Assembly (NCBI RefSeq): GCF_900101985.1
Contig: NZ_FNAR01000002.1
Location: 124,001-188,000 of the forward strand
DNA: 64,000 nucleotides
Source of the DNA: Bhargavaea beijingensis
GTDB taxonomy: Bacteria; Bacillota; Bacilli; Bacillales_A; Planococcaceae
Reading direction: 5' to 3'
This document shows, piece after piece, positions 4,182-61,667 of this stretch. Position numbers and translations under genes: made by a program. The stretch's first letter is position 1, and every line of letters starts with the position of its first letter. The notes beneath the pieces are model-generated. The model saw only the letters and a program-made list of their open reading frames with translations, made no database searches and had not been told where the DNA came from.

Positions 4182-4213
4182 TCTGAATTCTCCTCCCTTC
4201 AGTTGAAAACGCA

Positions 4214-4226
4214 TTCATAGAATGAA
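4214..4226. promoter_or_regulatory. candidate TetR operator, MFS side
   Basis: Palindrome TTCAT-AGA-ATGAA upstream of the MFS gene. It sits in a 20-plus-bp block nearly identical to one at 4320-4343 upstream of the divergent oxidoreductase. The shared block continues into AACGTGTTTT here and AACATGTTTT in the other copy. The TetR regulator at 5746-6423 is the obvious candidate ligand (inference). Confidence 0.5.
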
Positions 4227-4321
4227 CGTGTTTTATTTTATATTAAATTTCGATGAATGTAAATAGTTGAAATATTTATTGCGCAACTTTAAATAGTCAT
4301 GATAAGATAATTCAGAACTTA

Positions 4322-4334
4322 TTCATAAAATGAA
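4322..4334. promoter_or_regulatory. candidate TetR operator, oxidoreductase side
   Basis: Palindrome TTCAT-AAA-ATGAA, the second copy of the motif at 4214-4226, immediately upstream of the ribosome site of the FAD oxidoreductase. A half-like ATGAATGTTC lies upstream of the TetR gene near 6455, so autoregulation is possible. Confidence 0.5.
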
Positions 4335-4359
4335 CATGTTTTCTGAAAGGGTGGGAATA

Positions 4360-5694
4360 ATGAAAGACGTAATTATTACCGGTGGAGGTCTTGCAGGGAT
4401 GTCGGCCGCATGGGAATTAAGGGATAAAAATATACTTTTGTTAGAATCTGAACAGCGTTTCGGAGGTCGTGTGGCTTCTGAAAGAAGGGGGAAGTACTGG
4501 CTTAATTGGGGAGGACATGTGTATAGTGGTGCAAATTCGGCAACTGACCGCCTGCTTCGGTCGGTGGGGGTAGAGGCTTCGTCGGTACCCGGTGCGGTGA
4601 CCGGTCTTGCAATGAACGGAAAAGTCTTGCTGGACGGCAGAGTGGAAACTTATCCGTTTCGCATGCCGATGTCTTGGAAATCAAGGCTTGCCATTTTAAA
4701 AGCTGGGGCAAAAGTCAGGTTAGCTGTCATGAAGTATGGGAAAGTAGTCTCTCCCAGGCCAGGTGAGGACTTTAGGCAGCATCAGGAAAGAATCTACAAT
4801 TATAAAAACGACAGGACGTTCACTGACTATGTAGGGCAACTTCCCGAAGATGCTGATGCGATTTTCCGGCCAACAGTCAGCCGTTCGGCTGGTGATCCGG
4901 AAGAAGTATCTGCAGGTGCTGGGATCGGTTACTTCCACTTGGTATGGGATAAAGGAGAAGGGCTTTCCAGAAATATTCATGGGGGGCCCTCCACACTGAT
5001 TAACACAATTGCAGAATCTCTTGGAGACAAAGTGCAAAGTGGTGCAACGGTTGAATCCGTGATTCAACAACCTAATTCCGTGCTCGTTACATACAGGCAA
5101 AACGGAAAGCTCTTCAAAGAGGAAGCCCGGTACGCGATTCTCGCAACGCCTGCCCCGGTTACAAAAAAAGTCGCAGCAAATATTGACCCTGAGATCGCCG
5201 AAGCTCTGGGAAAGATTAAATATGGACCTTATGTAAGTGCGGCTTTCTTGACTGACGAAAACCAACCGGAAATTTGGGATGACGCATATGCGATTGCTAC
5301 GCCTAAACGATCATTCAATGTTTTCTTTAACATGTCCAATTTGGTGCGTTCGTGGGAGGAACAACGTGGCAAAGGAAGCAGTATAATGACATTTTCACCG
5401 GCAACATTAGCCAGAAAGCTTATCGACAAAAGTGATGATGAAATCATTGAAACGTATTTGAGAGATATTGAAGAGATCTTCCCGGGTTTCCGTCAAAAAG
5501 TCGTTGAAGCCCAAGTGAGAAAATTCCCGCTCGGCTTGGCTTATTGTTTTCCGGGACGGGCAAAGCTGCAAAAAGCGCTTACGAAACCTGCAGGCCGTCT
5601 GTTTCTTGCAGGAGATTATTTAGGTACCTTATATACAGAAACAGCGATAAAGACAGGTTACGAAGCCGCAAGAGAAATTTTGCGTAAACTTTAA
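4360..5694 (+). CDS. FAD-dependent oxidoreductase, protoporphyrinogen oxidase/amine oxidase fold
   Basis: A flavoprotein of 444 residues. The N-terminal dinucleotide fold starts at once with IITGGGLAGMSAAWEL, continues to the LLESE strand end and then FGGRV, as in the protoporphyrinogen oxidase, phytoene desaturase and monoamine oxidase superfamily. The C-terminus has the second FAD contact LFLAGDYLGTLYTETAIKTG. Start ATG 4360 is chosen for the AAAGGGTGGGA ribosome site; an in-frame ATG at 4330 lies inside the operator. Divergent from the MFS transporter and followed by a TetR regulator, it may oxidise the compound the transporter imports (inference). A housekeeping HemY role is unlikely because no haem genes are near. 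The substrate is unknown. Confidence 0.82.
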   Translation: MKDVIITGGGLAGMSAAWELRDKNILLLESEQRFGGRVASERRGKYWLNWGGHVYSGANSATDRLLRSVGVEASSVPGAVTGLAMNGKVLLDGRVETYPFRMPMSWKSRLAILKAGAKVRLAVMKYGKVVSPRPGEDFRQHQERIYNYKNDRTFTDYVGQLPEDADAIFRPTVSRSAGDPEEVSAGAGIGYFHLVWDKGEGLSRNIHGGPSTLINTIAESLGDKVQSGATVESVIQQPNSVLVTYRQNGKLFKEEARYAILATPAPVTKKVAANIDPEIAEALGKIKYGPYVSAAFLTDENQPEIWDDAYAIATPKRSFNVFFNMSNLVRSWEEQRGKGSSIMTFSPATLARKLIDKSDDEIIETYLRDIEEIFPGFRQKVVEAQVRKFPLGLAYCFPGRAKLQKALTKPAGRLFLAGDYLGTLYTETAIKTGYEAAREILRKL

Positions 5695-11910: not shown

Positions 11911-12741
11911 ATGGATTGGTTTGACCTGTTAAAAGCAATCATTTTAGGCTTCGTCGAAGGGATGACGGAGTTTGCGCCGGTCTCCTCGACCGGCCATCTG
12001 ATCATCGTCGACGACATGTGGCTGAAGACGGAAGAATTCCTCGGAAAGTACCCGGCGAACACGTTCAAGATCGTCATCCAGCTCGGGTCGATCCTGGCCG
12101 TCGTCTTTGTATTCTGGAAGCGCCTGTTCAGCCTGATCGGGCTGTACCAGGTGGAAACGCGCGAAGGCGGAAGCACGCGGTTCAACCTGATGCACGTCAT
12201 CATCGGCATGCTGCCGGCCGTCGTGCTCGGCTTCGCATTCAAGGACTTTATCGACGACCACCTGTTCAGTGTGGAGACCGTCATCTGGGCGCTTGTCGCC
12301 GGAGCGATCCTGATGATCGCGGCCGACAAATTCGGCCCGAAAACGCCGCGCGTCACGTCGCTTGACCAGCTGACGTACAAACAGGCCTTCTCGATCGGCC
12401 TCGTCCAGTGCCTCTCGCTCTGGCCGGGCTTCTCGCGCTCCGGCGCGACCATTTCCGGCGGTGTCCTGTTCGGCCTCAGCCACAAAACGGCCGCCGACTT
12501 CACCTTCATCATGGCCGTCCCGATCATGGCCGGCGCGAGCCTCGTCTCCGTCGTGAAAAACATGGACATGATGTCGATGGACTACCTGTCCTTCTACATC
12601 GTCGGCTTCGTGAGCGCGTTCGTCTTCGCCCTCCTGTCGATCAAATTTTTCCTCAAACTCATCGACCGCATCAAACTCACCCCATTCGCCATCTACCGCC
12701 TCGTCATCGCCGCGGTGCTGGCATGGATCGTGTGGATGTAA
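11911..12741 (+). CDS. uppP: undecaprenyl-diphosphatase
   Basis: An integral membrane phosphatase of the BacA/UppP family that dephosphorylates undecaprenyl pyrophosphate to recycle the cell-wall lipid carrier and confers bacitracin tolerance. The 276 residues carry both family motifs: GFVEGMTEFAPVSSTGH (about 13-29) and PGFSRSGAT with its catalytic Ser/Arg. It follows dedA by 6 nt with only a weak ribosome site, so translation is probably coupled. A strong terminator ends the unit at 12754-12778. Confidence 0.95.
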   Translation: MDWFDLLKAIILGFVEGMTEFAPVSSTGHLIIVDDMWLKTEEFLGKYPANTFKIVIQLGSILAVVFVFWKRLFSLIGLYQVETREGGSTRFNLMHVIIGMLPAVVLGFAFKDFIDDHLFSVETVIWALVAGAILMIAADKFGPKTPRVTSLDQLTYKQAFSIGLVQCLSLWPGFSRSGATISGGVLFGLSHKTAADFTFIMAVPIMAGASLVSVVKNMDMMSMDYLSFYIVGFVSAFVFALLSIKFFLKLIDRIKLTPFAIYRLVIAAVLAWIVWM

Positions 12742-12753
12742 GTTGAAAGTGAA

Positions 12754-12778
12754 AACCCCGCTGCTGCGGGGTTTTTTT
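12754..12778 (+). terminator. terminator of dedA-uppP
   Basis: Stem AACCCCGC/GCGGGGTT with a 4-nt loop and a run of seven T. Confidence 0.9.
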
Positions 12779-12791
12779 GTGGGCGGGGGCG

Positions 12792-12972
12792 TATTGAGAC
12801 ATTCAGGCGGTGTATTGAGACATTCAGGCGGTGTATTGAGACATTCATAGGCGGTATCGAGACATTCATAGGCAGTATTGAGACATTCATAGGCGGTATC
12901 GAGACATTCATAGGCAGTATCGGGACATTCAGGCGGTGTATTGAGACATTCGCAAGGGGTATCGGGACATTC
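12792..12972. repeat. 21-bp phased array A1, nine units
   Basis: Nine units start at 12792, 12813, 12834, 12855, 12876, 12897, 12918, 12939 and 12960, always exactly 21 bp apart. Each has a 13-bp core TATYGRGACATTC and 8 variable bases. On the minus strand the core reads GAATGTCYCRATA. It fills the space between uppP and the convergent NERD gene, and its last unit overlaps the NERD stop codon. It is not CRISPR-like because the spacers are only 8 bp and partly repeated. The heptapeptide frames through it have no start region and are not taken as genes. Confidence 0.95.
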
Positions 12973-13957
12973 ACCTCTCAAAGAGATCAAGTTGGCGATA
13001 GTCGATCTCGTAATAAGTCGACCGGGCGTTCCCCTTTCTCGTGAGCGGGAGCCGATTCAGCACCCGCACCCCGGTTCTCCTTGAGCACTGAAATATTATG
13101 CAGAATTGCTTTACTGTAATGGTATTGCTGCGCAGCAGAAACCAGGTCATCAAGGTTTTTATATACGGATCCTTGATACGCAGTCCACACGGGCGGCACG
13201 ACCACGTCATCTCGGAGATTTTATCAAGTAGATAGCCGCAATCGCACCTGGGGCCCCAGTCAACCCTCTCCGGATCAATTCCATATTTCCTGAACAGGGG
13301 ATAGGGAATATACGGAGAAAGGCTTGACCGGATCGTGTTGGCGAGAATCTCTACTTCTTGCAAACTCATGACAGGTATGAATTGCAATGACTTTGCAATG
13401 AAGCCGCGCAATTCGCGGAGCTTGATGACTGGCAGCCCCTTAGGAATGGTTTCGATGATCGGATTGGTCGTGAAGACAACGGAGCCGCCGATCGGTACGG
13501 AAAATCCCCGCATCCTAAGCCAAGTTTCCAAACTTGCCCGCTGGTCCTCGAATTGGGCGGCAGGGCAGTCCATGGAAAGGATGATCTTACCGTCCTCTAC
13601 TTTCTCAAGTTGCGCAGGATTTTGGACAAAGCGCAACCGGCCTGCGATTTGTTTGGTTTCGAAAATCAGAATGACTGCAGGTGTCAGGACGAGAGCATCC
13701 AACTGAATGGTTACACCCGGAATAATCTCCAAAGTGGTATCAGACAATACCACACAGTCGTTCGGCAACCCAGATGAACGGAGCACTTCCAATACCCGTT
13801 CCTCGCCCGCCAGCCCGGCTTTCCGGTTTTTCTGCTGGTGCTCCAATTCGTTTCGTTTGATCTCCCAATCGGGAAGCACTTCCAGCAAGCGCTCGTGTGC
13901 AAATACGTTCCAGTAAGTCGCCCCTTTTTTCGTGATTTCCCCCACCGTCCCTCTCAT
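12971..13957 (-). CDS. NERD-domain protein with zinc ribbon and HTH-like tail (NERD1)
   Basis: A 328-residue protein of unknown function. The NERD (nuclease-related) core has D87 in IQLDALVLTP and E100/K102 in IFETKQIAG, the D...ExK arrangement of restriction-like nucleases. A four-cysteine zinc ribbon follows (C238, C240, C254, C257), then a basic helix-turn-helix-like tail (about 278-303). This layout suggests a DNA-binding nuclease. ATG 13957 is chosen; GTG 13975 in the same frame is possible and neither has a strong ribosome site. The stop codon lies in the last unit of array A1. A second protein of the same layout lies at 60541-61497, also next to 21-bp arrays. No activity can be asserted. 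Confidence 0.8.
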   Translation of the reverse strand: MRGTVGEITKKGATYWNVFAHERLLEVLPDWEIKRNELEHQQKNRKAGLAGEERVLEVLRSSGLPNDCVVLSDTTLEIIPGVTIQLDALVLTPAVILIFETKQIAGRLRFVQNPAQLEKVEDGKIILSMDCPAAQFEDQRASLETWLRMRGFSVPIGGSVVFTTNPIIETIPKGLPVIKLRELRGFIAKSLQFIPVMSLQEVEILANTIRSSLSPYIPYPLFRKYGIDPERVDWGPRCDCGYLLDKISEMTWSCRPCGLRIKDPYIKTLMTWFLLRSNTITVKQFCIIFQCSRRTGVRVLNRLPLTRKGNARSTYYEIDYRQLDLFER

Positions 13958-14303
13958 TTTCTTCCACCGTACCACGGAATTTCCAAGCCCGAAAGAAGGG
14001 CGGAAACCGCTATGCGGCGCGGGTTTGGCCGTTGTTCAATTTTGCTTGGCCAAACGGAACCAAGATTCAATTTTTCCTATACAAAATGAGTATTTGGCCC
14101 CATCCGCTATTTATTTCGAACTACGGAATGACTCGCGGTTTCCGTCCATCGAATCACCCCGCGGCCCCTCCGTTCGGCACTTCTTTTCCCAACGATCCGA
14201 CAGCGTTCTGTATCCAAATAACTGAATATTTAAACAGGTATTGAGCAACTCCTCAATCATTGCTATTCTTGCGGTGAACAGACTTGAAGGGGTGTGGGGA
14301 CGG
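13958..14303. other. divergent intergenic region, NERD1 and M14 peptidase
   Basis: About 345 bp without a convincing gene. It contains an inverted repeat GTTTGGCC...GGCCAAAC (14023-14030 with 14048-14055) that could be an operator or hairpin. The part before 14304 is A+T-rich and presumably holds the peptidase promoter. I see no good sigma-A match for NERD1. Confidence 0.5.
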
Positions 14304-15494
14304 ATGAAGAAGTGGGTTGGCGTGACGGCGGCGATCGCCATGGCGGCAGGGATTGCCCTGCCTGCAGCACCGGGGGAGGCGCTGGCGAAGGAAGAGTCGC
14401 ATCATGAGTTTTCGATCAAAGGATTCACCGATTATGCGGAGCTGACGAAAAAGCTGCAGCAGATCGAGCAGACGAGCAAGGGACTGGTGTCGGTTGACGT
14501 GGCGGGCCAGTCAAACCAGGGCCGCGATATCTACACGGCACGGGTCGGTACCGGGGATAAGGTCGTCCTCATCCAAAGCGAGATCCACGGCAACGAAAAG
14601 ACCGGGACCGATGCGATCCTGAGTCTCCTGAAGACAGTGTCGGGCAGTTCGCCTTATGCCGGGCAGCTCCGTGAAGAGATCACGTTCGTCTTCATGCCGA
14701 TGATGAACCCGGATGCATCCGTCGGGGACAAGCGCCGCAATACGATGACGTGGGCGGATGTGGTCGAAGACTTTCCTCAGCTCAGCGGTGCACAGCCGTC
14801 GTGGAACTATCTGGACCGCGGCATCAGCCAGAGCTACGATTACGGAAAAAACCCGGGCTTCGACGTGAACCGTGACTTCAACCCGGACCTCGATTACGTC
14901 CCGCAGCCGGAAGACTTCCCGGGAAGCTCGTCCGACCCGGGCTGGTTCATCACACCGGAATCCCAGACGTCCCGTGACGTTTACAAATCGCTCGTCGGGG
15001 AGTTCGGCAAAGTCGACGTTTTCATCGACCTTCACCACCAGGGCATCTACTACGTCGAGGGCACGTCCGATGAAGTGACGCTGTCGCTGTCGGCGCAGTT
15101 TGTACCGGATCCGTCGAGTCCTGACGGCGCGGACTACGCCGGGTACGCGGACACATATAATTATGATTTTTCGCGACAGCTGAACGTGGCTGCCTATGAT
15201 GCACTACAAGCCAAGGGCGATTCAATCTTCAACAACATCACGCTCTATTCGCAGGGGCTCGACCTGCCGGGCACGGCGCTCGGTTCGTATGCGCTGAACG
15301 GCAGCGGCACCGTCCTGTTTGAAGTGACCGGCCAGACCCAGTCGTTCGGACAGAAAAAACGCGGCCAGCTTGTGAAGGCGGTGGAGACCGGGCTTCTCGG
15401 CATCGTGAACGCCGTTGCTGACGGCTCCGTCCATGACCTGAATCCGGAAGATTACGAGGAGATCCCGCTGACCGCTTATCGTCCGGCGGACTAA
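14304..15494 (+). CDS. secreted M14 family zinc carboxypeptidase
   Basis: A predicted exoenzyme of 396 residues that removes C-terminal amino acids from peptides. From ATG 14304 an N-terminal signal peptide (MKK, a hydrophobic core, then PAAPGEALAK) leads to a mature domain with the M14 zinc ligands HGNE and the later His in DLHHQG, the GRDI region, and the catalytic glutamate in LFEVTG. The longer frame from 14241 would bury the signal peptide, so it was rejected. A second M14 gene follows at 15696. A strong terminator lies after the stop, so the two are separate transcription units. Substrate preference is unknown. Confidence 0.9.
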   Translation: MKKWVGVTAAIAMAAGIALPAAPGEALAKEESHHEFSIKGFTDYAELTKKLQQIEQTSKGLVSVDVAGQSNQGRDIYTARVGTGDKVVLIQSEIHGNEKTGTDAILSLLKTVSGSSPYAGQLREEITFVFMPMMNPDASVGDKRRNTMTWADVVEDFPQLSGAQPSWNYLDRGISQSYDYGKNPGFDVNRDFNPDLDYVPQPEDFPGSSSDPGWFITPESQTSRDVYKSLVGEFGKVDVFIDLHHQGIYYVEGTSDEVTLSLSAQFVPDPSSPDGADYAGYADTYNYDFSRQLNVAAYDALQAKGDSIFNNITLYSQGLDLPGTALGSYALNGSGTVLFEVTGQTQSFGQKKRGQLVKAVETGLLGIVNAVADGSVHDLNPEDYEEIPLTAYRPAD

Positions 15495-16779: not shown

Positions 16780-16801
16780 TGCGGATATTCAGGCGCGGTG
16801 G

Positions 16802-16856
16802 GAGTGTTAAGGAAACCTCTCTGAGTGTTAAGAAAAGCGCCGCGAGTGTGAAGCAG
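16802..16856 (+). repeat. 21-bp phased array C1, three units
   Basis: Units at 16802, 16823 and 16844, exactly 21 bp apart: GAGTGTTAAGGAA, GAGTGTTAAGAAA and GAGTGTGAAGCAG, separated by 8 variable bases. It has the 5+8+8 plan of the other arrays but a different 8-nt block. It follows a terminator, so it is probably not part of the M14 messenger. Confidence 0.85.
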
Positions 16857-17047
16857 ATCTTCGACCTTCCAGTCCAGGCCGGATCTCCCCCGGGCCCTCA
16901 GATTGCAAAGGTTCCCCCAATTCTCCCAATTAGAACATATTGAAACCGCCTTCATTTCTTTCCCGGTCCGCGATATACTGACCAAAGCGTAATTTTCCGA
17001 ACGCTAAAATGACTGAATATTAATTGTCATCTAAGAAAGGAGAAAAC

Positions 17048-18586
17048 ATGGAAGCGAACAAGAAAAAAGGGTTCGTCCAAAAATTCCTCGATATGATCGA
17101 AACGGTCGGGAACAAGCTGCCCCATCCGGTCACGCTGTTCGCCGGGCTGGCACTTCTTGTGCTGGTCCTTTCAGCGATCGTCTCGTCCTTCGGCATCTCG
17201 GTAGAGCACCCGGGCAAAGAAGGGGAGATCATCGAGGTCAAGAACCTTCTCAATAAAGAGGGAATCCACTACATATTCACGAGCATGACCGATAACTTCA
17301 TCGGTTTTGCGCCGCTCGGCGTCGTCCTCCTCACGATGCTCGGCATCGGGGTCGCGGAACATTCCGGCCTCATCTCCGCGCTCCTGCGCGGCTTCGTCAT
17401 GTCGGTGCCGAAGCGTCTGATCACGCTCGGCCTGGTGTTCGCGGGGGTCATGTCGTCCGTCGCATCCGATGCGGGCTATGTCGTCCTGCCGCCGCTCGGC
17501 GCGGTCATCTTCGCCGCGCTCGGCCGGCACCCGCTGGCGGGCCTTGCCGCCGCATTTGCCGGGGTATCCGGAGGGTTCAGCGCGAACCTGCTTTTGTCGG
17601 GCACGGACGCGCTGCTCGGTGAGCTGACGATCCTCGGCGCAGCCATCATGGACCCGGCGTACGCCGACGGCATGAATATTGCCATGAACTACTACTTCAT
17701 CATCATCTCTGTCTTTGTCCTGACATTCGTCGGGGCATGGGTCACGGAGAAAATCGTCGAGCCGCGTCTCGGCGAATATAAGGGCGAGTTCCGCGAAAGC
17801 ATGGACAAGCTCACGGCTGTTGAGAAAAAGGGCCTTGTGTGGGCAACTGTTTCCCTTCTCGTCGCAGCGGCACTGATGGCACTGCTCGTCCTGATTCCGG
17901 GCGCGCCTCTCCGCGGGGATGAAGGGGATATGCCGATCATTCGCTCGCCGTTCATGAGCTCGCTCGTTCCGATCATCGCCATTCTGTTCTTTATCCCGGG
18001 CGTGGTCTACGGAGTGGTCACCAAAGCGATCCGCAGCGACAAAGACGTCGCCGAAATGATGGGCAAGACGATGGCGACGATGGGAATGTTCATCGTCCTC
18101 AGCTTTACCGCCGCCCAGTTCGTCGCTTACTTCTCCGAGTCGGGTATGGGTCTCGTCCTCGGCGTCTACGGCGCAGAATTCCTGCAGAGCATCAAGCTGG
18201 AAGGCATTCCGCTCGTCCTGCTGTTTATCGCGATTGCCGCGTTCATCAACCTGTTCATCGGCTCCGCTTCGGCAAAGTGGGCCATGATGGCACCGATCTT
18301 CGTGCCGATCATGATGCAGCTCGGCTACTCGCCGGAGCTCACGCAGATGGCGTACCGCGTCGCGGACTCCTCGACCAACATCATCTCGCCGCTCATGACG
18401 TACTTTGCCATCATCATCGCATTCGCACAAAAGTACGATAAGAAAATGGGGATCGGGACACTCGTCTCCACGATGTTCCCTTACTCCATGGCGTTCCTGA
18501 TCGTCTGGTCGGCCGTCCTCATCATCTGGATGGTCCTCGGCCTTCCGCTCGGTCCGGACGCACCGATCTACTACAACGGAAACTGA
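17048..18586 (+). CDS. AbgT family transporter
   Basis: A 512-residue membrane protein of the AbgT family (p-aminobenzoyl-glutamate importers and antimetabolite exporters). It has 11-13 hydrophobic segments, the N-terminal block GNKLPHPVTLFAG, SDAGYVVLPPLGA, and the C-terminal hairpin with LFIGSASAKWAMMAPIFVP followed by ADSSTNIISPLMTYF. AAGGAGAAAAC precedes ATG 17048. It is convergent with the IclR gene. An M20 amidohydrolase of the AbgB type lies at 61740-62942, far away, so the link is only suggestive. Whether it imports or exports cannot be told. Confidence 0.9.
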   Translation: MEANKKKGFVQKFLDMIETVGNKLPHPVTLFAGLALLVLVLSAIVSSFGISVEHPGKEGEIIEVKNLLNKEGIHYIFTSMTDNFIGFAPLGVVLLTMLGIGVAEHSGLISALLRGFVMSVPKRLITLGLVFAGVMSSVASDAGYVVLPPLGAVIFAALGRHPLAGLAAAFAGVSGGFSANLLLSGTDALLGELTILGAAIMDPAYADGMNIAMNYYFIIISVFVLTFVGAWVTEKIVEPRLGEYKGEFRESMDKLTAVEKKGLVWATVSLLVAAALMALLVLIPGAPLRGDEGDMPIIRSPFMSSLVPIIAILFFIPGVVYGVVTKAIRSDKDVAEMMGKTMATMGMFIVLSFTAAQFVAYFSESGMGLVLGVYGAEFLQSIKLEGIPLVLLFIAIAAFINLFIGSASAKWAMMAPIFVPIMMQLGYSPELTQMAYRVADSSTNIISPLMTYFAIIIAFAQKYDKKMGIGTLVSTMFPYSMAFLIVWSAVLIIWMVLGLPLGPDAPIYYNGN

Positions 18587-18596
18587 TCATAAGAAG

Positions 18597-18626
18597 AACC
18601 CCCTCGCTTCGGCGAGGGGGTTTTGC
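18597..18626 (+). terminator. terminator after AbgT-like gene
   Basis: Stem AACCCCCTCGC/GCGAGGGGGTT with TTCG loop and T-run. Confidence 0.9.
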
Positions 18627-18635
18627 TGTGTTGGG

Positions 18636-18669
18636 GATGAGCAAGAAAGGCGCCACGAGTGTTAAGCAA
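18636..18669 (+). repeat. array C2, one clear and one degenerate unit
   Basis: GAGTGTTAAGCAA at 18657-18669 is a class C core. Exactly 21 bp before it, GATGAGCAAGAAA matches class C at 8 of 13 positions. It sits between the convergent AbgT-like and IclR genes. Confidence 0.55.
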
Positions 18670-18672
18670 ACC

Positions 18673-19404
18673 TCACCCAGCCCCCAGTTTCCTCCCGATC
18701 CGGTCACCCGCTTCCATCACCTTCTCCGACAGATAAGCAAGCCGTTCGTTCTCCAGCCCGTAGTCGAGGAAGCCGATTGAGACGGCGCCGATCACCTCGC
18801 CGAGCCCGTCCTTGACGGCGACGGCGACGGAAGCGGTGCCTGGGGTGCGTTCGCCGTGGCTTTCGGCAAAGCCGGCATCGCGGATTTGCTGAAGTTTGAT
18901 GTAGAAGTCGTCCCGCTTTTCTTCAGGAATGAGGGTTTCGACGATCCGCCTGACGCGGTCTTCCGGCATGGCCGCCAGGATCGCCTTATTGGCCGCTCCG
19001 ATATGGAGAGGGATCCGGATGCCGAGCGGGTCATTGATGCGGATCGGGTTTTCCTCGCTGTCGATGCGCTCCATGACAATCGCCTCATTGCCGGACGGCC
19101 GGCTCAGATAAACGCTTTCCTTGACTTCCCGTGACAGCCGCTCGAGCTCGGGGCGGATTTTCGTGACGTAGTCCATCGAATCATAGAGCCGCAGGCCGTA
19201 TTCCATCCACACCGGACCGAGGCGGTACAGTTTGGTTTGCTCGTCCTGCTCCACCATACGCTGCCGGGCCATTCCCTGAAGAATCCGGTGCATCGTGCTG
19301 AGCGCAAGCCCGCTTTGGGCGGACAGCTCGGAAATGCTCATCTCCCCCTGATCAGCGTCTGATAAAAGCGCCGCTATTTTCATCGATCGTTCAAGTGCCT
19401 GCAT
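18673..19404 (-). CDS. IclR family transcriptional regulator
   Basis: A 243-residue regulator. The N-terminal winged helix (about 5-65, with ISELSAQSGLALSTMHRIL) is followed by an IclR effector domain carrying GAANKAILAAMPED and GTASVAVAVKDGLGEVIGAVSIG. ATG 19404 fits the usual IclR start, MQALERSMKIAALL. It diverges from the DDAH/RocB operon, and both sides of the shared promoter region carry TTTCCG-N5-CGGAAA palindromes. It is therefore the likely local regulator, sensing perhaps an arginine derivative (inference). It is convergent with the AbgT-like gene. Confidence 0.9.
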   Translation of the reverse strand: MQALERSMKIAALLSDADQGEMSISELSAQSGLALSTMHRILQGMARQRMVEQDEQTKLYRLGPVWMEYGLRLYDSMDYVTKIRPELERLSREVKESVYLSRPSGNEAIVMERIDSEENPIRINDPLGIRIPLHIGAANKAILAAMPEDRVRRIVETLIPEEKRDDFYIKLQQIRDAGFAESHGERTPGTASVAVAVKDGLGEVIGAVSIGFLDYGLENERLAYLSEKVMEAGDRIGRKLGAG

Positions 19405-28885: not shown

Positions 28886-29023
28886 GGTTTCGTCATTCGG
28901 CCGTCTGATTTCATCATTCGGGAGGAAAGTTTCGTCATTTGCTTAATGAATGATGAAACCTGGACGCCGAATGACGAGACTAAGGCGATGAATGACGAAA
29001 CCAACGTATTAAATGACGAAACC
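28886..29023. repeat. 21-bp phased array B1, seven units (3 reverse, 4 forward)
   Basis: Reverse units GRTTTCRTCATTY start at 28886, 28907 and 28928. Forward units RAATGAYGARACY start at 28948, 28969, 28990 and 29011. All steps within each orientation are 21 bp. The orientation switches across 7 bp, so a transcript could fold into an interrupted hairpin. It fills most of the 314-bp gap between the PepSY genes, after the terminator and before the promoter of the second. Confidence 0.93.
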
Positions 29024-32930: not shown

Positions 32931-33185
32931 AAGATCCGCCGACAACCGGGCGGATCAAAAGACCTGCATCTCTAAAAGGGGGAAATAGAGAAGTGGGGCT
33001 GATCATAGGATACCCGGTCCGCCGGATCTTAATCCCGGAACGTGAAATTTTCTTTAATGCCCCGCCCTTCCCTTCTTATTTCTCAAAAAAATACCCGCCG
33101 ACATCGCCGGCGGGCCAGGACCTGCATTCTCTAAAAGGGGGAAATAGAGAAGTGGGGTTGCTAATAGGTTACCCGCCTTTCGGGG
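32931..33185 (+). ncRNA. tandem duplicated structured-RNA candidate in the leader of the BceR-like gene
   Basis: Two similar elements (about 32931-33030 and 33091-33185). Each starts with a GC-rich hairpin (GATCCGCC/GGCGGATC in copy 1; CCCGCCG-type in copy 2). Then come the shared words GACCTGCAT and CTCTAAAAGGGGGAAATAGAG (the latter able to pair CTCT with AGAG), AGTGGGG, and ATAGGNTACCCG leading into a closing hairpin. Loop and joining sequences are conserved while stem bases change compensatorily, as in an RNA. The frame through it is open but its protein does not resemble the regulator N-terminus. I do not recognise the RNA class. It occupies most of the 385-bp gap before 33254. Confidence 0.5.
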
Positions 33186-33253
33186 AGTTATTCATGTTTT
33201 TCCAAAAAACTCTCGGAGTTTCCGGTAAACTGGTGGAAAAGGGGGTCTTCGTA

Positions 33254-33949
33254 ATGGCGTTCACAGTGTTTATGGTGGAGGATGACGAGGCGATTTTCCG
33301 GTCGCTGTCCGAAAAGCTCGGGCAGTGGGGGCTGTCGGTCACGGGCCCTGACGATTTTCACCGGGTGATGGAAGCGTTCCGGGCGGCCGGTCCCCATCTG
33401 GTGATTCTCGACATCGGACTGCCGGCGTTTGACGGATACCACTGGTGCCGCGAGATCCGTGCGGAGTCGAACGTGCCAATCGTCTTTTTGTCGTCGCGCG
33501 ACCATCCGATGGACCAGGTGATGGCAATGTCGATGGGCGCAGACGACTTTATCCGTAAACCCTTCCATTCAGATGTCCTTTTGGCGAAGCTCCAGGCCAT
33601 TCTGCGGCGCACATATGCCTACGCCGACGAAAAGCCGGACGTTGCGGAATGGAACGGAGCGGTGCTTGACCTAAAGCGGGGCATCATCCGCTCCGGCGGC
33701 AAGGAGGTCGAGCTGACGAAAAACGAATTCTTCATCCTCGCTGTTCTCGTCGAATCGCGAAACGAAATCCTTTCCCGTGACGAACTGATCCGCAAACTCT
33801 GGGACGACGAGCGTTTCGTGAACGACAACACCCTCACGGTTAACATCAACCGGTTGCGGAACAAGCTTGAAGAAATCGGGCTCGGGGATAAGATTGTGAC
33901 GAAAAAGGGACTGGGGTATGTGGCGGTGGAGAACGGTTCGCCTGACTGA
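33254..33949 (+). CDS. OmpR-family response regulator (BceR-like)
   Basis: A 231-residue regulator with receiver domain (E9/D10/D11, phosphoacceptor D53 in VILDIGLPAFDG, and Lys in FIRKPFHSD) and winged-helix domain (VELTKNEFFILAVLVESRNEIL...NTLTVNINRLRNKLEEIG). This matches the BceR group, which controls bacitracin-type exporters. ATG 33254 has AAAGGGGG upstream, and longer readings would run through the structured leader. The kinase gene follows after 118 bp, a gap filled by array D. A BceAB-like exporter lies at 47188-49921 and could be a target (inference). Confidence 0.9.
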   Translation: MAFTVFMVEDDEAIFRSLSEKLGQWGLSVTGPDDFHRVMEAFRAAGPHLVILDIGLPAFDGYHWCREIRAESNVPIVFLSSRDHPMDQVMAMSMGADDFIRKPFHSDVLLAKLQAILRRTYAYADEKPDVAEWNGAVLDLKRGIIRSGGKEVELTKNEFFILAVLVESRNEILSRDELIRKLWDDERFVNDNTLTVNINRLRNKLEEIGLGDKIVTKKGLGYVAVENGSPD

Positions 33950-33966
33950 ACACTCAGTCAAACCGG

Positions 33967-34042
33967 TTATCACCCATTTCCCCAAAGATATCGCTCGTTT
34001 TTATCCGGATATCGAACACTTTTGAAAAGATATCAACCACTC
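33967..34042 (-). repeat. 21-bp phased array D, four units
   Basis: On the minus strand the units read GAGTGGTTGATAT (34042-34030), AAGTGTTCGATAT (34021-34009), AAACGAGCGATAT (34000-33988) and AAATGGGTGATAA (33979-33967), exactly 21 bp apart. The GATAT end is conserved and the GARTG end degenerates leftwards. The array separates the response regulator from its kinase gene, leaving the kinase ribosome site intact. Confidence 0.85.
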
Positions 34043-34067
34043 CCGCCCAGAAGGAGGCAAGTTCAAC

Positions 34068-35093
34068 ATGCTCATCCCCTATCTAAAATCTCGTCTCCCA
34101 TGGATCCTTTTCTTCCTCGGCGCTCTCCTTCTCGGGGACCTGATCATCATCATCGATGACGGGATCGAGATCGAAGCGGCCTCCGTCCTGTATATGAACG
34201 TCCTTTTAGCCGCGGCATTCGCTCTCTTCGTCCTCTGGCGGTGGCGGCAGGAGACGGCGTTCCTTCGGAAAGCATCGAGCCTGACAGATCAATTGCTCCG
34301 GGATTGGGAGGAGCTGTTGCCTGAGCCTCCATCCGATCTTGACCAAATAACGGCGGAACTACTCACCGCAGCTTCCCGTTCTCATCGGGAGGAGCTGGCG
34401 AAGGTGGCTGATGCACAGTATCTGGAGACGGATTACCTGGCAGCGTGGGTGCATGAGGCGAAGGCGCCGCTGACGGCGATCAAGCTGATTGTGGATGAAC
34501 ACCGGGGCAATCCGGCCATGCGCAGGCTTGAGGCGGAGTGGCTCCGGCTTCATCTGCTGATCGACCGGCAGTTGTATATCTCGCGCATGCCGACGCTCGC
34601 GGCCGACTTTCTTCCCGGGACGGCAAGCGTGCGCTCGCTCAACGCGCCCGAGATCCGCGAACTCGCCGCCTGGTGCATGGAAAAGGACGTAGCGGTCGAA
34701 CTGGAAGGAGAGGACTACCTCGTTCGCACCGACGAAAAATGGGCGCGGTTCATCATCCGGCAGATCCTGACGAACGCCGTGAAATACAGCCCGGCCGGCG
34801 CCACAATCACCATCACAGCCGATCGGTCTTCCAAGGGGAATGTCCGGGTCCGAATCAAAGACGAAGGGCCCGGCATCCCTGCACACGACCTGCCGCGGAT
34901 CTTCGAAAAAAGCTTCACGGGCAGCACCGGCCGCATCCACAATGCCGCCACGGGTCTCGGCCTGTATCTCGCAAATACGGTAGCCGCAAGGCTGGGCATC
35001 CACCTGTCCGCCGTTTCGAAACAAGGACAGGGCACCGTCCTCACGCTGACCTTCCCGAAAGATAATGAGTTTGATCGGATCATGGGTGGCTAA
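34068..35093 (+). CDS. intramembrane-sensing histidine kinase (BceS-like)
   Basis: A 341-residue kinase with two TM helices (about 10-29 and 38-57) joined by a very short outer loop, as in BceS-type kinases that sense through a partner ABC transporter. Phosphoacceptor H129 lies in AAWVHEAKAPLTAIK. The ATPase domain has LTNAVKYSPAGA, DEGPGIP and TGLGLYLA. AGAAGGAGGCAAG precedes ATG 34068. No ABC transporter gene adjoins it; the BceAB-like pair 12 kb downstream is a candidate partner. Confidence 0.88.
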   Translation: MLIPYLKSRLPWILFFLGALLLGDLIIIIDDGIEIEAASVLYMNVLLAAAFALFVLWRWRQETAFLRKASSLTDQLLRDWEELLPEPPSDLDQITAELLTAASRSHREELAKVADAQYLETDYLAAWVHEAKAPLTAIKLIVDEHRGNPAMRRLEAEWLRLHLLIDRQLYISRMPTLAADFLPGTASVRSLNAPEIRELAAWCMEKDVAVELEGEDYLVRTDEKWARFIIRQILTNAVKYSPAGATITITADRSSKGNVRVRIKDEGPGIPAHDLPRIFEKSFTGSTGRIHNAATGLGLYLANTVAARLGIHLSAVSKQGQGTVLTLTFPKDNEFDRIMGG

Positions 35094-46925: not shown

Positions 46926-46978
46926 GGCGCATCTCCTTTTCAAATGATTTTCCGGGGCTTCTCTTGAAAGGATACCAT

Positions 46979-47033
46979 GAATGTCCCGATACCCTGCGTG
47001 AAAGTCTCAATTCCTCCGATGAATGTCGCGATT
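46979..47033 (+). repeat. 21-bp phased array A2, three units
   Basis: Units at 46979, 47000 and 47021, exactly 21 bp apart: GAATGTCCCGATA, GAAAGTCTCAATT, GAATGTCGCGATT. This is the class A core seen beside NERD1 34 kb away, here in the gap before the BceA-like gene. Confidence 0.85.
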
Positions 47034-47187
47034 CTCACGCACGCCACCCACGACCTTACAAAATCGTCACTTACGGCTCCGCTATTGTCACCCATTTCAA
47101 ACGACCGCAGTCGTCTCTGCGCGCTATGATAAACTCAATAAATCGGGCGGGATAACACCAGCAATCCCGCCGCCGGGAGGAATCATC

Positions 47188-51437: not shown

Positions 51438-51459
51438 GAACTCAACCTCATATGAATAT

Positions 51460-51590
51460 GCCCCCTAGGGTTCCGCGGCGCCGAGCGCGCCGGACTGGTC
51501 CGAGAGGGGGCACACGGCGAAGTTTGCCGTGCCACGGAAGGACAAAAGCCTGGGAGATGCTGTCGGATCAGCATGCTCCCGGGCTTTTTT
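51460..51590 (+). ncRNA. guanidine-I riboswitch with terminator
   Basis: The hallmarks of the guanidine-I (ykkC) riboswitch are present in order: CTAGGGTTCCG, ACTGGTCCGAGAG, the ACACGGCGAAG...CCGTG arm, ACGGAAGGACAAAAGCCTGG and GGGAGA. The 3' part (AGCCTGGGAG...CTCCCGGGCT, then TTTTTT, about 51547-51590) is an intrinsic terminator that competes with the ligand-bound fold. Guanidine should switch on the two SMR genes that follow. Confidence 0.95.
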
Positions 51591-51646: not shown

Positions 51647-51991
51647 ATGAAAGAATGGGGAAAAATCATCATCGCGGCCGTCTTTGAAGTCGGCTGGGTG
51701 ATCGGGCTCAAACACGCGGACAGCGCTTTGGAATGGCTCGCCACCGCGGCGGCCATCTGGGCAAGTTTCCACTTGCTCATCGTCGCCGGGCGCACGCTTC
51801 CGGTCGGCACCGCCTATGTCGTCTTTGTCGGGCTCGGCGCGGTCGGCACCGTCATCGCCGAAATCATCCTGCTCGGCGTGCCGGTCAATCCGGCCAAGCT
51901 GATCCTGATCGCCGTCCTGCTAGCCGGAGTGGTCGGGCTGAAAGCTGTCACGGATCAAGGAGGGAAAAAAGAATGGCATGGCTCTCACTGA
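51647..51991 (+). CDS. gdnC: SMR family guanidinium exporter subunit (GdnC-like)
   Basis: A 114-residue small multidrug resistance protein with four TM helices and the membrane glutamate in [13 protein letters not shown] (about position 14) that binds substrate and protons. The guanidine-I riboswitch directly upstream identifies it as a Gdx-type guanidinium exporter rather than a broad drug pump. AAGAGGAGGAAGCC precedes ATG 51647. The partner gene overlaps its end by 19 nt, as in paired heterodimeric SMR genes. Confidence 0.92.
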
Positions 51992-52287
51992 TCGCCGCCG
52001 GCCTGTGTGAAACAGCCGGCGTCATGACCATCAGCCGCCTCAACCAGCAACGCGACGCCCGGTCGTTCCTGCTGCTGCTGGGCGCATTCGGCGCAAGCTT
52101 CATTTTGCTCGCCTACGCCATGGCATTCATCCCGATGTCAACGGCCTACGCCATCTGGACCGGCATCGGTGCATCCGGCGGCGCACTTGCCGGTATGTGG
52201 CTTTACGGAGAGTCGAAAGACTGGCGCCGGGTGCTGTTCATCCTGATGATCCTTGGGGCTGCGGTCGGGCTGAAACTGGTGGAATGA
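51973..52287 (+). CDS. gdnD: SMR family guanidinium exporter subunit (GdnD-like)
   Basis: A 104-residue SMR protein with four TM helices and the conserved glutamate in [16 protein letters not shown] (Glu13). CAAGGAGGGAAAAAAG precedes ATG 51973, inside the end of gdnC. It probably forms an antiparallel heterodimer with GdnC and exports guanidinium against protons. Confidence 0.92.
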
Positions 52288-53019: not shown

Positions 53020-53067
53020 ACACAATATGTTAGGCTATATGAGCGTTAACAACACTATATATTGTAG
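53020..53067. promoter_or_regulatory. two NrdR boxes
   Basis: ACACAATATGTTAGGC (53020-53035) and ACACTATATATTGTAG (53052-53067) match the NrdR consensus ACACWATATMTTGTGT. They start 32 bp apart, about three helical turns, the usual spacing for cooperative NrdR binding, and overlap the likely promoter. Confidence 0.85.
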
Positions 53068-53072
53068 TCACG

Positions 53073-53228
53073 ATGGGTTGGTACCGATCGCGGTTTAATA
53101 GGGAATCCGGAAAAGCCGGAGCTGTCCCCGCAACTGTGAGCGCCGACGACCGCCAAAAAAGCCACTGCAGCGATGCTGCGGGAAGGCCGGCGGGAGAGAG
53201 AAGCGCGAGCCAGTAGACCTGCCTTCCC
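53073..53228 (+). ncRNA. cobalamin riboswitch
   Basis: Conserved blocks occur in order: GGTTGGT, TTAATAGGGAA, GGAGCTGTCCCCGCAACTGT (the B12 box), GCCACTG, GGGAAGG, and AGCCAGTAGACCTGCC. It precedes a hairpin terminator at 53357-53394, so adenosylcobalamin should stop transcription of the class I reductase operon. Confidence 0.95.
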
Positions 53229-53356
53229 ATCGCAAGCGACACTTTCTTCGGGGGTTGAGAGGTGGAAGCGAACGGGCGCCGGCCTTTCATATTTTTCATT
53301 CATCCATTTATTCATCCCCGGCCCCGATCTTCCATTACCCACACGCCAAAAAGCGG

Positions 53357-55787: not shown

Positions 55788-55821
55788 GAGTGTTGAGAAA
55801 ACCATGCTGAGTATTAAGCAA
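55788..55821 (+). repeat. 21-bp phased array C3, two units
   Basis: GAGTGTTGAGAAA at 55788 and GAGTATTAAGCAA at 55809, 21 bp apart, with 8 variable bases between. It lies inside the operon, in the 81-bp gap between nrdE and the flavodoxin gene. Confidence 0.75.
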
Positions 55822-55850
55822 ATCCGCCCACTGCCAGAGGAGGGAGATCG

Positions 55851-60026: not shown

Positions 60027-60097
60027 AAGCTGATGTGTCTGGGAGATGACAAACCGGCTGGCGATGCGGCCGCAGAGATTGCGGCTAATATGGAAGG

Positions 60098-60136
60098 ACC
60101 CCGCTCACTTCCCGGATGGGAGATGGCGGGGTTTTT
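60098..60136 (+). terminator. terminator after the VOC gene
   Basis: ACCCCGC...GCGGGGT outer stem with an inner TCCC/GGGA hairpin and TTTTT. Confidence 0.8.
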
Positions 60137-60148
60137 GTATGGGAATGC

Positions 60149-60332
60149 GAATGGCGAGTCTTCGTGCGGGAATGACGAAACTTTGAATGGGAATGAGGAA
60201 ATTGGAACGGCGAATGCGGAAACTGCATCCAAGGCAAATGCCGAAACCTCGCCGCTGAATGATGAAACTGGCGCAGTGAATGAAGAAACTAAATGCGTGA
60301 ATGATGAAACCAAAGCTGTGAATGCCGAAACC
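60149..60332 (+). repeat. 21-bp phased array B2, nine units
   Basis: Forward units start at 60149, 60170, 60191, 60212, 60236, 60257, 60278, 60299 and 60320. All steps are 21 bp except one of 24. The consensus is GAATGNNGAAACY plus 8 variable bases. It lies between the VOC terminator and the promoter of the second NERD gene. A 102-codon frame from 60033 runs through it as an NxET heptapeptide repeat, but it crosses the terminator and lacks a family match, so it is not called a gene. Confidence 0.93.
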
Positions 60333-60507
60333 ACCATGTGAGCCGGTGCCAATTGTGACTTTGTTAACCCGGCAAAATCTCATTTTGATACACTTCCCAG
60401 ATCATATTTCCAATTTGGCATCAAGAAATGCCCCAATTTGTGATCTCTCCGAGCTGAGTATCTTGCTGATTCCCGGCGTGATAGGGTTTTACAAAGGGGG
60501 GATTGAA

Positions 60508-60535
60508 TTGGGGGTACGGCCATATCCATTATAAT
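60508..60535 (+). promoter_or_regulatory. possible promoter of the second NERD gene
   Basis: -35 TTGGGG (60508-60513), 16-bp spacer, -10 TATAAT (60530-60535). Transcription would begin at about 60541-60543, on the ATG itself. The same bases also lie behind AAAGGGGGG (60493-60501), which would instead serve TTG 60508. Confidence 0.4.
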
Positions 60536-60540
60536 TGCTG

Positions 60541-61497
60541 ATGTTGGAATGCATGCAGAGGAGATTATATCCGGGCCATCGGGAACTGGAGAGGATTGGC
60601 GATCAGATCAGGAGGCTGGAAGCAGGATTCAGCGGGGAACAAAAGGTTGATCAATATCTGGAAGGGTTACGGCTGCCGAGGGAATGGTGGGTTCTCCGGG
60701 ATATCCGTCTCAGGATGAATAAGTCGCATGTCGCGCAGTTTGACACATTGATGGTGACGGATCGCGGAATCGGCATCATTGAATCAAAGCTGTTCAAGGG
60801 GACACTTCGCTATCAGGAGAACCCCCGCAGGCTGGAACGCATCGAGGAAGACGGCTCGATTCTCACGTTCGACTGCCCGATCATCCAGCTTGAAAATCAA
60901 AAGGAGGCTCTGATCGAATGGCTTCGCCAAAGAGAACTGATGACGAGTGTCAAAGGCGTGGTGGCCTTTGCCTCCCGCAACACGTGGCTCGGCTTGCCTG
61001 AACATGCCCCGTTCGTCTCGGTAAAGGAATTGCCCTACATCATGCGGCGGGACTTCGGGACAACTGCCGCAACCGGCGGCACCCCTGCTCATATGATTGT
61101 GAACCGGATCCTTGCAGAGCAGTTGGGTCCTGAGTGGGTGCGGGCCGATCGGCGATATGATATCCATCCTGATGACTATAAAAGAGGTCTCTTATGCGAA
61201 ACCTGCCATAACATTTTGGGGTGGAAGACCAGAAGAACCCTGGACTGTCCGCAATGCGGACAACCAACGGGCAATCCGTATCGGGACGCCTTGCTGGACT
61301 GCTTCTTGCTGATCAACCCCGTCATCACAACCCGGGACTACTGCAATTTTACTGGGATCCCCTCGGTATCGACCGGACATCGGCATCTGAGCAGTTTTGA
61401 GCTGGACGTACTCGGAAGCACCTGCAAACAGGCTTTCCGGTTTGATCCGAAGAGGCATCTGGCAGGAAAATCACTGATTCAGAAACGGAGCCGCTGA
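60541..61497 (+). CDS. NERD-domain protein with zinc ribbon and HTH-like tail (NERD2), N-terminus possibly interrupted
   Basis: A 318-residue paralogue of NERD1 in layout. The NERD core has D68 in AQFDTLMVTD and E81/K83 in GIIESKLFKG, a zinc ribbon C219, C222, C236, C239, and an HTH-like tail (about 261-285). No ribosome site precedes ATG 60541 or TTG 60535. In the same frame a strong AAAGGGGGG site precedes TTG 60508, which reads MGVRPYPL and then TAA (60532), directly joined to LLMLECMQRRL. NERD proteins I recall begin with a similar PL...LE.LLRRL pattern, so the stop may be a nonsense mutation bypassed by re-initiation. Arrays B2 and B3 flank the gene; B3 begins 2 bp after the stop codon. 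Confidence 0.75.
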   Translation: MLECMQRRLYPGHRELERIGDQIRRLEAGFSGEQKVDQYLEGLRLPREWWVLRDIRLRMNKSHVAQFDTLMVTDRGIGIIESKLFKGTLRYQENPRRLERIEEDGSILTFDCPIIQLENQKEALIEWLRQRELMTSVKGVVAFASRNTWLGLPEHAPFVSVKELPYIMRRDFGTTAATGGTPAHMIVNRILAEQLGPEWVRADRRYDIHPDDYKRGLLCETCHNILGWKTRRTLDCPQCGQPTGNPYRDALLDCFLLINPVITTRDYCNFTGIPSVSTGHRHLSSFELDVLGSTCKQAFRFDPKRHLAGKSLIQKRSR

Positions 61498-61498
61498 C

Positions 61499-61667
61499 GG
61501 TTTCGTCATTCGTCCGTCCGGTTTCGTCATTCGTTAAGCCAGTTTCGTCATTCGTCCGAACAGTTTCGTCATTCATGTCCAGGAGGAGGATGAATGACGA
61601 AACCACTGCCGCGAATGACGAAACCGCAACCCCGAATGACGAAACCACAACCCCGAATGACGAAACC
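61499..61667. repeat. 21-bp phased array B3, eight units (4 reverse, 4 forward)
   Basis: Reverse units RGTTTCGTCATTC start at 61499, 61520, 61541 and 61562. Forward units GAATGACGAAACC start at 61592, 61613, 61634 and 61655, all in 21-bp steps. The two halves face each other across 17 bp containing AGGAGGAGGA, forming a symmetric inverted repeat of 13-bp blocks. It starts 2 bp after the NERD2 stop codon. Confidence 0.95.

Follow-up and report, generated by a model that had tools for sequence, protein, structure and literature searches.

Passages of Bertels and Rainey (2011, PMC3116915) describe the REPIN-RAYT systems, in which short extragenic repeats are dispersed through the genome, distinct groups of repeats lie near specific single genes, and the repeats are sometimes arranged as inverted doublets. 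The passages of PMC4213456 report MIRU repeats between senX3 and regX3 of Mycobacterium tuberculosis, with units of 77 and 53 bp; this repeat array also lies in the spacer of a two-component operon and is limited to one lineage. Among the non-CRISPR interspaced repeat arrays of Altae-Tran et al. (2023, PMC10910872), the comparison covered the AddB-like and GGDEF systems (two of six). In the passages on these two, conserved repeats and variable spacers adjoin a predicted nuclease gene, and neither system is a NERD gene with 21-bp arrays.

Array D lies between the response-regulator and sensor-kinase genes of a two-component operon in the window, the whole 64,000-nucleotide stretch of Bhargavaea beijingensis DNA analysed here (genome G000: 2.99 Mb, 43 contigs, assembly 99.8% complete). 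The NERD-linked family of arrays was defined by a 21-bp period, a sequence type (flavour) close to that of NERD flanks, and a cognate NERD gene in the same genome. Array D has the period and the flavour, and no cognate gene was found in its genome or in G007. With regard to CRISPR arrays, for which adjoining cas genes are the criterion, the gene beside the arrays here was repeatedly a NERD gene. As in the REPIN-RAYT passages, each group of NERD-linked repeats is tied to one specific gene. The REPIN-RAYT partner in those passages is a tyrosine (HuH) transposase, whereas here it is a PF08378 protein with GxxGE, D and ExK in 97–98% of 115 aligned rows. The repeats here are 21-bp tandem arrays, and the gene usually has such arrays on one side or both, no more than a few hundred bases away, unlike in the REPIN-RAYT passages. 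In contrast to the hairpin-forming palindromic doublets of REPINs described there, the units of array D all point the same way and their fold does not surpass that of shuffled sequences, while 21 of 31 clusters of the S2 flavour are diverging pairs. Array D also differs from the MIRU repeats of the passages cited, with a period of 21 bp against 53–77 bp and no promoter-like site. Unlike the two interspaced-repeat systems compared, the arrays here are dispersed through the genome in both orientations.

The partner genes of the arrays belong to the NERD family (PF08378) by sequence, but form a subfamily with four cysteines and a predicted winged-helix-like tail. Iterons of plasmid replicons are direct repeats about two helical turns apart that are bound by a winged-helix protein; unlike iterons, the arrays described here are chromosomal, occupy many loci, belong to no replicon and have a NERD partner. 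The NERD domain was reportedly described by Grynberg and Godzik in 2004.

According to passages of PMC9040797, the function of the NERD domain was unstudied before SmdA. No description of NERD-linked arrays was found in the open-licence literature; because the coverage was of open-licence sources only, this absence is weak evidence. The NERD passages of PMC10910872, PMC10952713, PMC12458937 and PMC9040797 mention no linkage to arrays, the open-licence repeat literature on Planococcaceae, Sporosarcina and Bacillales held nothing on such arrays, and searching that literature with the array sequences as text words gave nothing on bacterial repeats among the matches listed.

Array D and the spacer of its operon

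The features of the window are listed in Table 1. Array D was best read on the minus strand. Its lag-21 agreement was 25 of 42 positions in a 42-base window, which none of 5000 dinucleotide shuffles reached; when any lag from 12 to 33 was allowed, the score was equalled in 2 of 1000 shuffles. Tandem Repeats Finder, run with a minimum score of 30, did not list array D. From unit 1 to unit 4 the first box reads GAGTG, AAGTG, AAACG and AAATG; the second box reads GATAT except in unit 4, where it is GATAA, and GATATC is intact in three of the four. The sequence-only reading had claimed that four 21-bp units fill the spacer, that they decay from GAGTG to AAATG while GATAT stays, and that the ribosome site of the kinase is spared. 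The array and the intact ribosome site of the kinase were confirmed, and so was the decay of the first box, but the constancy of GATAT holds for three units out of four. Upstream of the response regulator, 48-bp copies (32969–33016 and 33128–33175) were 92% identical to each other and had no Rfam match.

Table 1. Positions of array D, its operon, and further arrays and NERD-family genes in the window
Feature	Position	Strand	Remarks
Array D, flavour RAGTG-N3-GATATC (S3) with 7-bp linker	33959..34042	-	Four 21-bp units; also in G007
Array D unit 1, GAGTGGTTGATATCTTTTCAA	34042–34022	-	
Array D unit 2, AAGTGTTCGATATCCGGATAA	34021–34001	-	
Array D unit 3, AAACGAGCGATATCTTTGGGG	34000–33980	-	
Array D unit 4, AAATGGGTGATAACCGGTTTG	33979–33959	-	
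Regulator/kinase spacer, 118 bp	33950..34067	.	Regulator stop 33949, kinase start 34068
Kinase ribosome site AAGGAGG, intact	34051..34057	+	Identical letters precede the kinase start in congener loci L004–L010 (7/7)
OmpR-type response regulator gene	33194..33949	+	Pfam Response_reg and Trans_reg_C; start uncertain, ATG 33254 also possible
Sensor kinase gene	34068..35093	+	Pfam HATPase_c; best NCBIfam match SapS, under cut-off
NERD-family gene (ATG 60541), between GAATGACGAAAC arrays	60535..61497	+	PF08378 E 4.7e-14
S2 (GAATGACGAAAC) array upstream of NERD gene 60535–61497	60149..60331	+	Nine units; one step 24, others 21
S2 array directly downstream of NERD gene 60535–61497	61500..61574	-	Four units, minus half of a diverging pair
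S2 array	61592..61666	+	Four units, plus half of the diverging pair with 61500..61574
Second NERD-family gene	12971..13975	-	PF08378 search (G000:C41:137469)
GAATGTCTCRATAC (S4) array directly downstream of NERD gene 12971–13975	12766..12980	-	
Dispersed S2 element	28887..29022	.	Three minus units, then four plus units
Dispersed S4 array	46976..47040	+	Same array in G007
Dispersed GAGTGTTAAGAAAAC (S6) array	16790..16869	+	About three units

A total of 80 kinase loci were fetched, and spacers were measured in L004–L050, the more distant L051–L083 being left out. Outside Bhargavaea (L011–L050), the spacer was -7 to 45 bp in all 39 loci measured (L048 gave no regulator); at 45 bp or less these homologous spacers are too short for an array and are thus array-free. 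In the seven congener loci the spacer was 122–339 bp. Arrays with lag 21 (score of at least 25) were present at the site in seven of eight Bhargavaea genomes, the window included; the spacer of G006 held none above the threshold (score 20). These lengths support the earlier proposal that the spacer of the operon acquired an array.

At least three sequence types occupy the site within the genus: S3 in the window and G007, GAATGACGAAAC (S2) arrays in both orientations in G001, G002, G004 and G005, and arrays of a third type in G003. The sequence-only reading had named orthologues with the same spacer and unrelated sequence as the observation that would count against it. This was found in part, since the sequence type differs between congeners but the arrays are all of the 21-bp kind; what is conserved at the site is therefore the class of array, not its sequence type.

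Dispersed 21-bp arrays and NERD-family genes

Bhargavaea genomes contain many intergenic arrays with a conserved 12–15-bp core, drifting linkers and a 21-bp period. The lag survey covered 279 intergenic segments in eight syntenic blocks of 48–64 kb, with segments shorter than 63 bp or longer than 1000 bp left out. Genes were called by a custom script, which missed the NERD gene at 12971–13975; an array miscalled as a gene (60033–60341) was removed before counting. The survey revealed 62 arrays at lag 21, 41 at lag 42 and 19 at lag 63, with 0–2 at each other lag from 13 to 63, while shuffled segments gave 0.0 lag-21 arrays. Arrays were present in 19/39 convergent, 29/192 codirectional and 3/48 divergent segments. 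In other orthologous gaps, such as 18586–18673 and 12741–14304, the flavours differed or arrays were absent. Window positions 18640–18660 and 55790–55835 hold one or two degenerate GAGTGTTAAG (S6) units, where the arrays of congeners are fuller (and of another flavour at the first). Two riboswitches were also found in the window: a Guanidine-I riboswitch (51454–51558) preceding a pair of small genes (51647–52287), and a cobalamin riboswitch (53062–53240).

The S2 flavour formed 124 unit pairs in G000, with none for the reversed-pattern control. Of the S2 clusters in the fetched G000 stretches, 21/31 consisted of diverging halves; the steps were nearly always 21, the consensus was YGAATGACGAAACYG, and the linkers were near-random. 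The centre step of the diverging pairs was 29 in 15/21 and 17–21 in 6/21, a helical quantisation that agrees with a DNA-binding protein, as judged from 21 elements. An exact-match scan of viral contigs with three flavour patterns, that of array D left out, gave no match for any of them, and a viral origin was rejected on these three flavours. CIRCE, Ter and Spo0A boxes were considered as the identity of the core and dropped as chance resemblances, because the other flavours do not contain those words.

The extra gene adjoining S10 arrays (GAGTTTGAAGATTAG) in G001, G002, G004 and G005 encodes a NERD protein. S10 arrays cluster regionally round their NERD gene in the blocks of these four genomes, with four arrays within about 21 kb in G005. 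A PF08378 profile search gave 73 matches across the eight Bhargavaea genomes, of which 66 loci could be analysed; five matches in frames of about 650 aa, one weak partial match and L304 (no ORF) were left out, and L308–L310, which repeat NERD loci already in the set, were counted once. Arrays lay at -450..+350 of 49/66 Bhargavaea loci and of 27/49 loci from 12 genomes of a Sporosarcina-type genus (49 of 61 PF08378 matches analysed). In the syntenic blocks, an array was beside 13/13 NERD genes versus 75/397 other genes (p=1e-9). No nuclease gene is known to flank the MIRU repeats.

The 17/66 Bhargavaea loci with no array in the tested interval included all nine members of orthologue groups 0 and 4. 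Group 6 had arrays in 1/3 members, the 13 other multi-member groups in every member, and singletons in 10/16. Among the 22/49 Sporosarcina-type loci with no array was L356, whose protein is 76% identical to the RAGTGGTGATAA-flanked clade. In Sporosarcina locus L012, an entire array together with its leader, about 160 bp in all, is repeated so that four copies stand in tandem (4652–5263) downstream of the NERD gene at 3694–4635. Locus L393 (G000:C38) holds a broken C-terminal half of a NERD gene (1986–2695) that lies between GAGAGTGACGATT arrays; G007, G002 and G004 have longer relatives.

Profile search of 250 genomes of the class found the subfamily (E <=1e-20) in 40 genomes and 23/105 genera. 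Outside the genus, 47 loci among the matches listed were analysed (28 best-of-genome, 19 hand-picked). Lag-21 arrays lay within 700 bp of 36/47 of these listed loci, in several bacterial families; lag 20 occurred in five, of which four lacked lag 21, lag 18 in one, lag 24 in one, and the remaining lags from 17 to 26 in none. The arrays of L379, L395, L400 and L403, from other families, step by 20 bp instead of 21. The pairing of NERD genes and arrays seems to extend through many Bacillus relatives.

The array-flanked proteins are mostly 310–370 aa long, with conserved PD-(D/E)XK residues and four cysteines. The window protein (60541–61494) scored 53.3 bits against PF08378, compared with a curated cut-off of 22.1, and has the catalytic motif. 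In the alignment of 115 NERD proteins, G31, G34-E35, D70 and E83-x-K85 (numbered on the ORF at 60535–61497) were present in 97–98%, and the four cysteines were kept in 91–98%. Judged by sequence, these residues are those that an active PD-(D/E)XK enzyme carrying a zinc site should have. The AlphaFold model had moderate confidence (pLDDT 73.6, pTM 0.55); after the cysteines it shows the order helix-strand-helix-helix-strand-strand, a predicted C-terminal tail that we call winged-helix-like. Foldseek matches to the model were weak (best E 5e-3) and included Can2, Bax1, McrBC and Hjc, which we take to be PD-(D/E)XK nucleases, as well as PF0095 and AspA at E 0.45–0.77. A sequence search of solved structures gave nothing below E 0.35. 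Three NERD proteins had no match to PADLOC defence models, and in NCBIfam two of these three had only a weak MADS6 match, far under the cut-off.

Where arrays lay on both sides of a gene, their flavours agreed in 34/34 genes, with a median similarity of 0.83, against a median of 0.30 (95th percentile 0.45) for arrays of different genes (n=543). The motif similarity rose with protein identity: the median was 0.33–0.35 at 20–40% identity, then 0.38, 0.47, 0.59, 0.84 and 0.90 in ten-point bins from 40% to 90%, and 0.83 for the two pairs above 90%. For pairs at 50–75% identity the mean motif similarity was 0.585 versus 0.36 after permutation (0/1000). The C-terminal part predicted the motif with rho 0.71, and the NERD part slightly less well (rho 0.66). 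The flanking arrays are linked to the gene, so part of this co-variation reflects common descent.

Unit pairs were also counted genome-wide. The S2 flavour had 54–128 pairs in five genomes with a cognate NERD gene and 0, 0 and 99 in the three without; S10 had 11–22 in four genomes with the gene and 0, 0, 0 and 4 in the four without; S6 had 53 and 46 in two genomes with the gene and 0–6 in the six without. For these three flavours, arrays were abundant (11–128 pairs) in 11/11 cases with a cognate gene and in 1/13 without, the other 12/13 having 0–6 pairs. In G005, which has 99 S2 pairs, an S2-type NERD gene was not found (NERD loci L248, L253, L261, L268, L275, L293, L303 and L307). The S2 arrays of G005 are either an exception to the pairing or the result of recent gene loss.

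Readings of array D

Our preferred reading, at a probability of about 0.7, is that the units of array D, one of many dispersed arrays, are recognition sites of a DNA-binding, nuclease-like protein of the NERD family, and that the array is most probably an orphan relic today. Besides array D, G000 has the S3 flavour at one more place and G007 at two more, and a search with the S3 pattern did not find it in the six remaining Bhargavaea genomes. No NERD gene was found in the loci of about 3 kb round these other S3 arrays. For the four S3 arrays tested (D included), the top five of 76 matches were the flanks of the same five NERD genes of the Sporosarcina-type genus (L335, L351, L354, L358 and L359). 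The similarity of array D to these flanks was 0.71–0.79, compared with 0.51 for the next best match and 0.45 for the control 95th percentile. No S3-flanked NERD gene was found in G007 or among eight of the nine PF08378 matches of G000; the ninth, a weak partial match at C33:247170, was left out of the flank check. Since the flavour of array D matches that of a clade with no close homologue in G000, array D is probably an orphan relic of the NERD-linked family, as far as sequence comparison indicates.

Between the window and G007, arrays other than D had 283/314 identical core positions versus 150/199 in linkers (p=1e-5), while array D showed no difference (core 46/56 versus linker 22/28, p=0.77). 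The contrast between the core of array D and all other array cores pooled was not significant (p=0.10), and the contrast with one other array gave p=0.004, so its weaker core conservation is only suggestive. Because the core of array D is no better kept than its linker, unlike in the other arrays, a relic is the better reading, though not a proven one.

It is unlikely, but the strongest of the competing readings, that array D is a working array, with a cognate NERD gene that was missed: it may be hidden in an assembly gap, or S3 may be read by a divergent paralogue. The assembly is in 43 contigs, the G000 NERD locus L244 ends at a contig end 59 bp past the gene, 2/8 examined G000 NERD loci have no array, GATATC persists in most units of array D, and S3 recurs in G000 and G007. 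However, the assembly is nearly complete (99.8%), none of the eight examined G000 NERD genes is flanked by S3 (0/8), and the best G000 homologue of the S3-type clade is only 32% identical and is flanked by another flavour.

Slippage could also have produced array D and its kin as ordinary tandem repeats that have no protein partner and stand close to NERD genes only through the hitch-hiking of linked repeats. Identical neighbouring units do occur in some arrays, for example the repeated linkers at G001:C1:29137–29235, and this reading would also fit the unremarkable core of array D and the S2 arrays that G005 retains with no S2-type NERD gene found. We nevertheless consider it improbable, because one period of 21 bp recurs across nearly all flavours and genera (62 arrays at lag 21), cores are conserved while linkers drift, the same flavour stands on both sides in 34/34 genes and co-varies with the protein, and the NERD association spans several bacterial families.

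Still less probable is an action of array D on the RNA or transcription of the operon, as an attenuator, a terminator, a processing site or an internal promoter of the kinase gene. The spacer is probably transcribed, and the passages of PMC4213456 report that a MIRU array between two-component genes is able to drive the gene that follows it. However, the region 33850–34120 yielded no site resembling a promoter or a terminator, the RNA fold of array D was no better than that of shuffles (z +1.04) and array D had no Rfam match; on these grounds an RNA-level role was rejected. In addition, orientation and flavour at the site vary between congeners, and arrays of this class often stand between convergent genes (in 19/39 such segments). 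Taken together with the partner protein, the orientation-independence, the intergenic placement, the cores conserved over linkers and the period of two turns make binding to double-stranded DNA a better reading than an RNA role. Operator sites for the response regulator of the operon itself, which the position inside the operon might suggest, are highly improbable, since the site shows at least three flavours although the kinase is conserved (65–84% identity among congeners), and S3 also occurs at another locus beside unrelated genes.

In the preferred reading of array D as part of a NERD-linked family, the NERD protein would bind each unit, and its C-terminal winged-helix-like part would probably make the contact. 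With a step of 21 bp, or two helical turns, successive monomers would sit on one face of the DNA, so that an array may act as a scaffold for cooperative binding. Arrays would spread into permissive intergenic gaps and be kept or replaced there, which would explain the presence of one in the regulator/kinase spacer and the different flavours seen there from species to species. As an orphan, array D would make the spacer longer, with no known consequence. The putative binding might serve self-marking, restraint of the nuclease or the spread of the family.

A broader proposal, to which we give even odds, is that this NERD subfamily of Bacilli consists of diversifying sequence-specific DNA-binding nucleases, each with its own flavour of helically phased 21-bp arrays, in a RAYT/REPIN-like and possibly selfish or self-marking arrangement, and that array D is a fossil of the flavour of a lost gene. 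The arrays round the gene and across the genome might then either guide the spread of the family or restrain the nuclease on host DNA. The protein and its motif would evolve together, and such pairs may supply natural data from which a new DNA-recognition code could be read.

NERD domains are widespread and have almost no known function. If the pairing is true, it would give NERD proteins a candidate substrate and may show what they recognise, and it would offer dozens of natural protein/motif pairs (76 loci and 36 more) for the recognition code. The pairing would further enlarge the small set of dispersed repeats in bacteria whose partner gene is known, and would explain lineage-specific repeats within operons, such as the two-component operon that carries array D.
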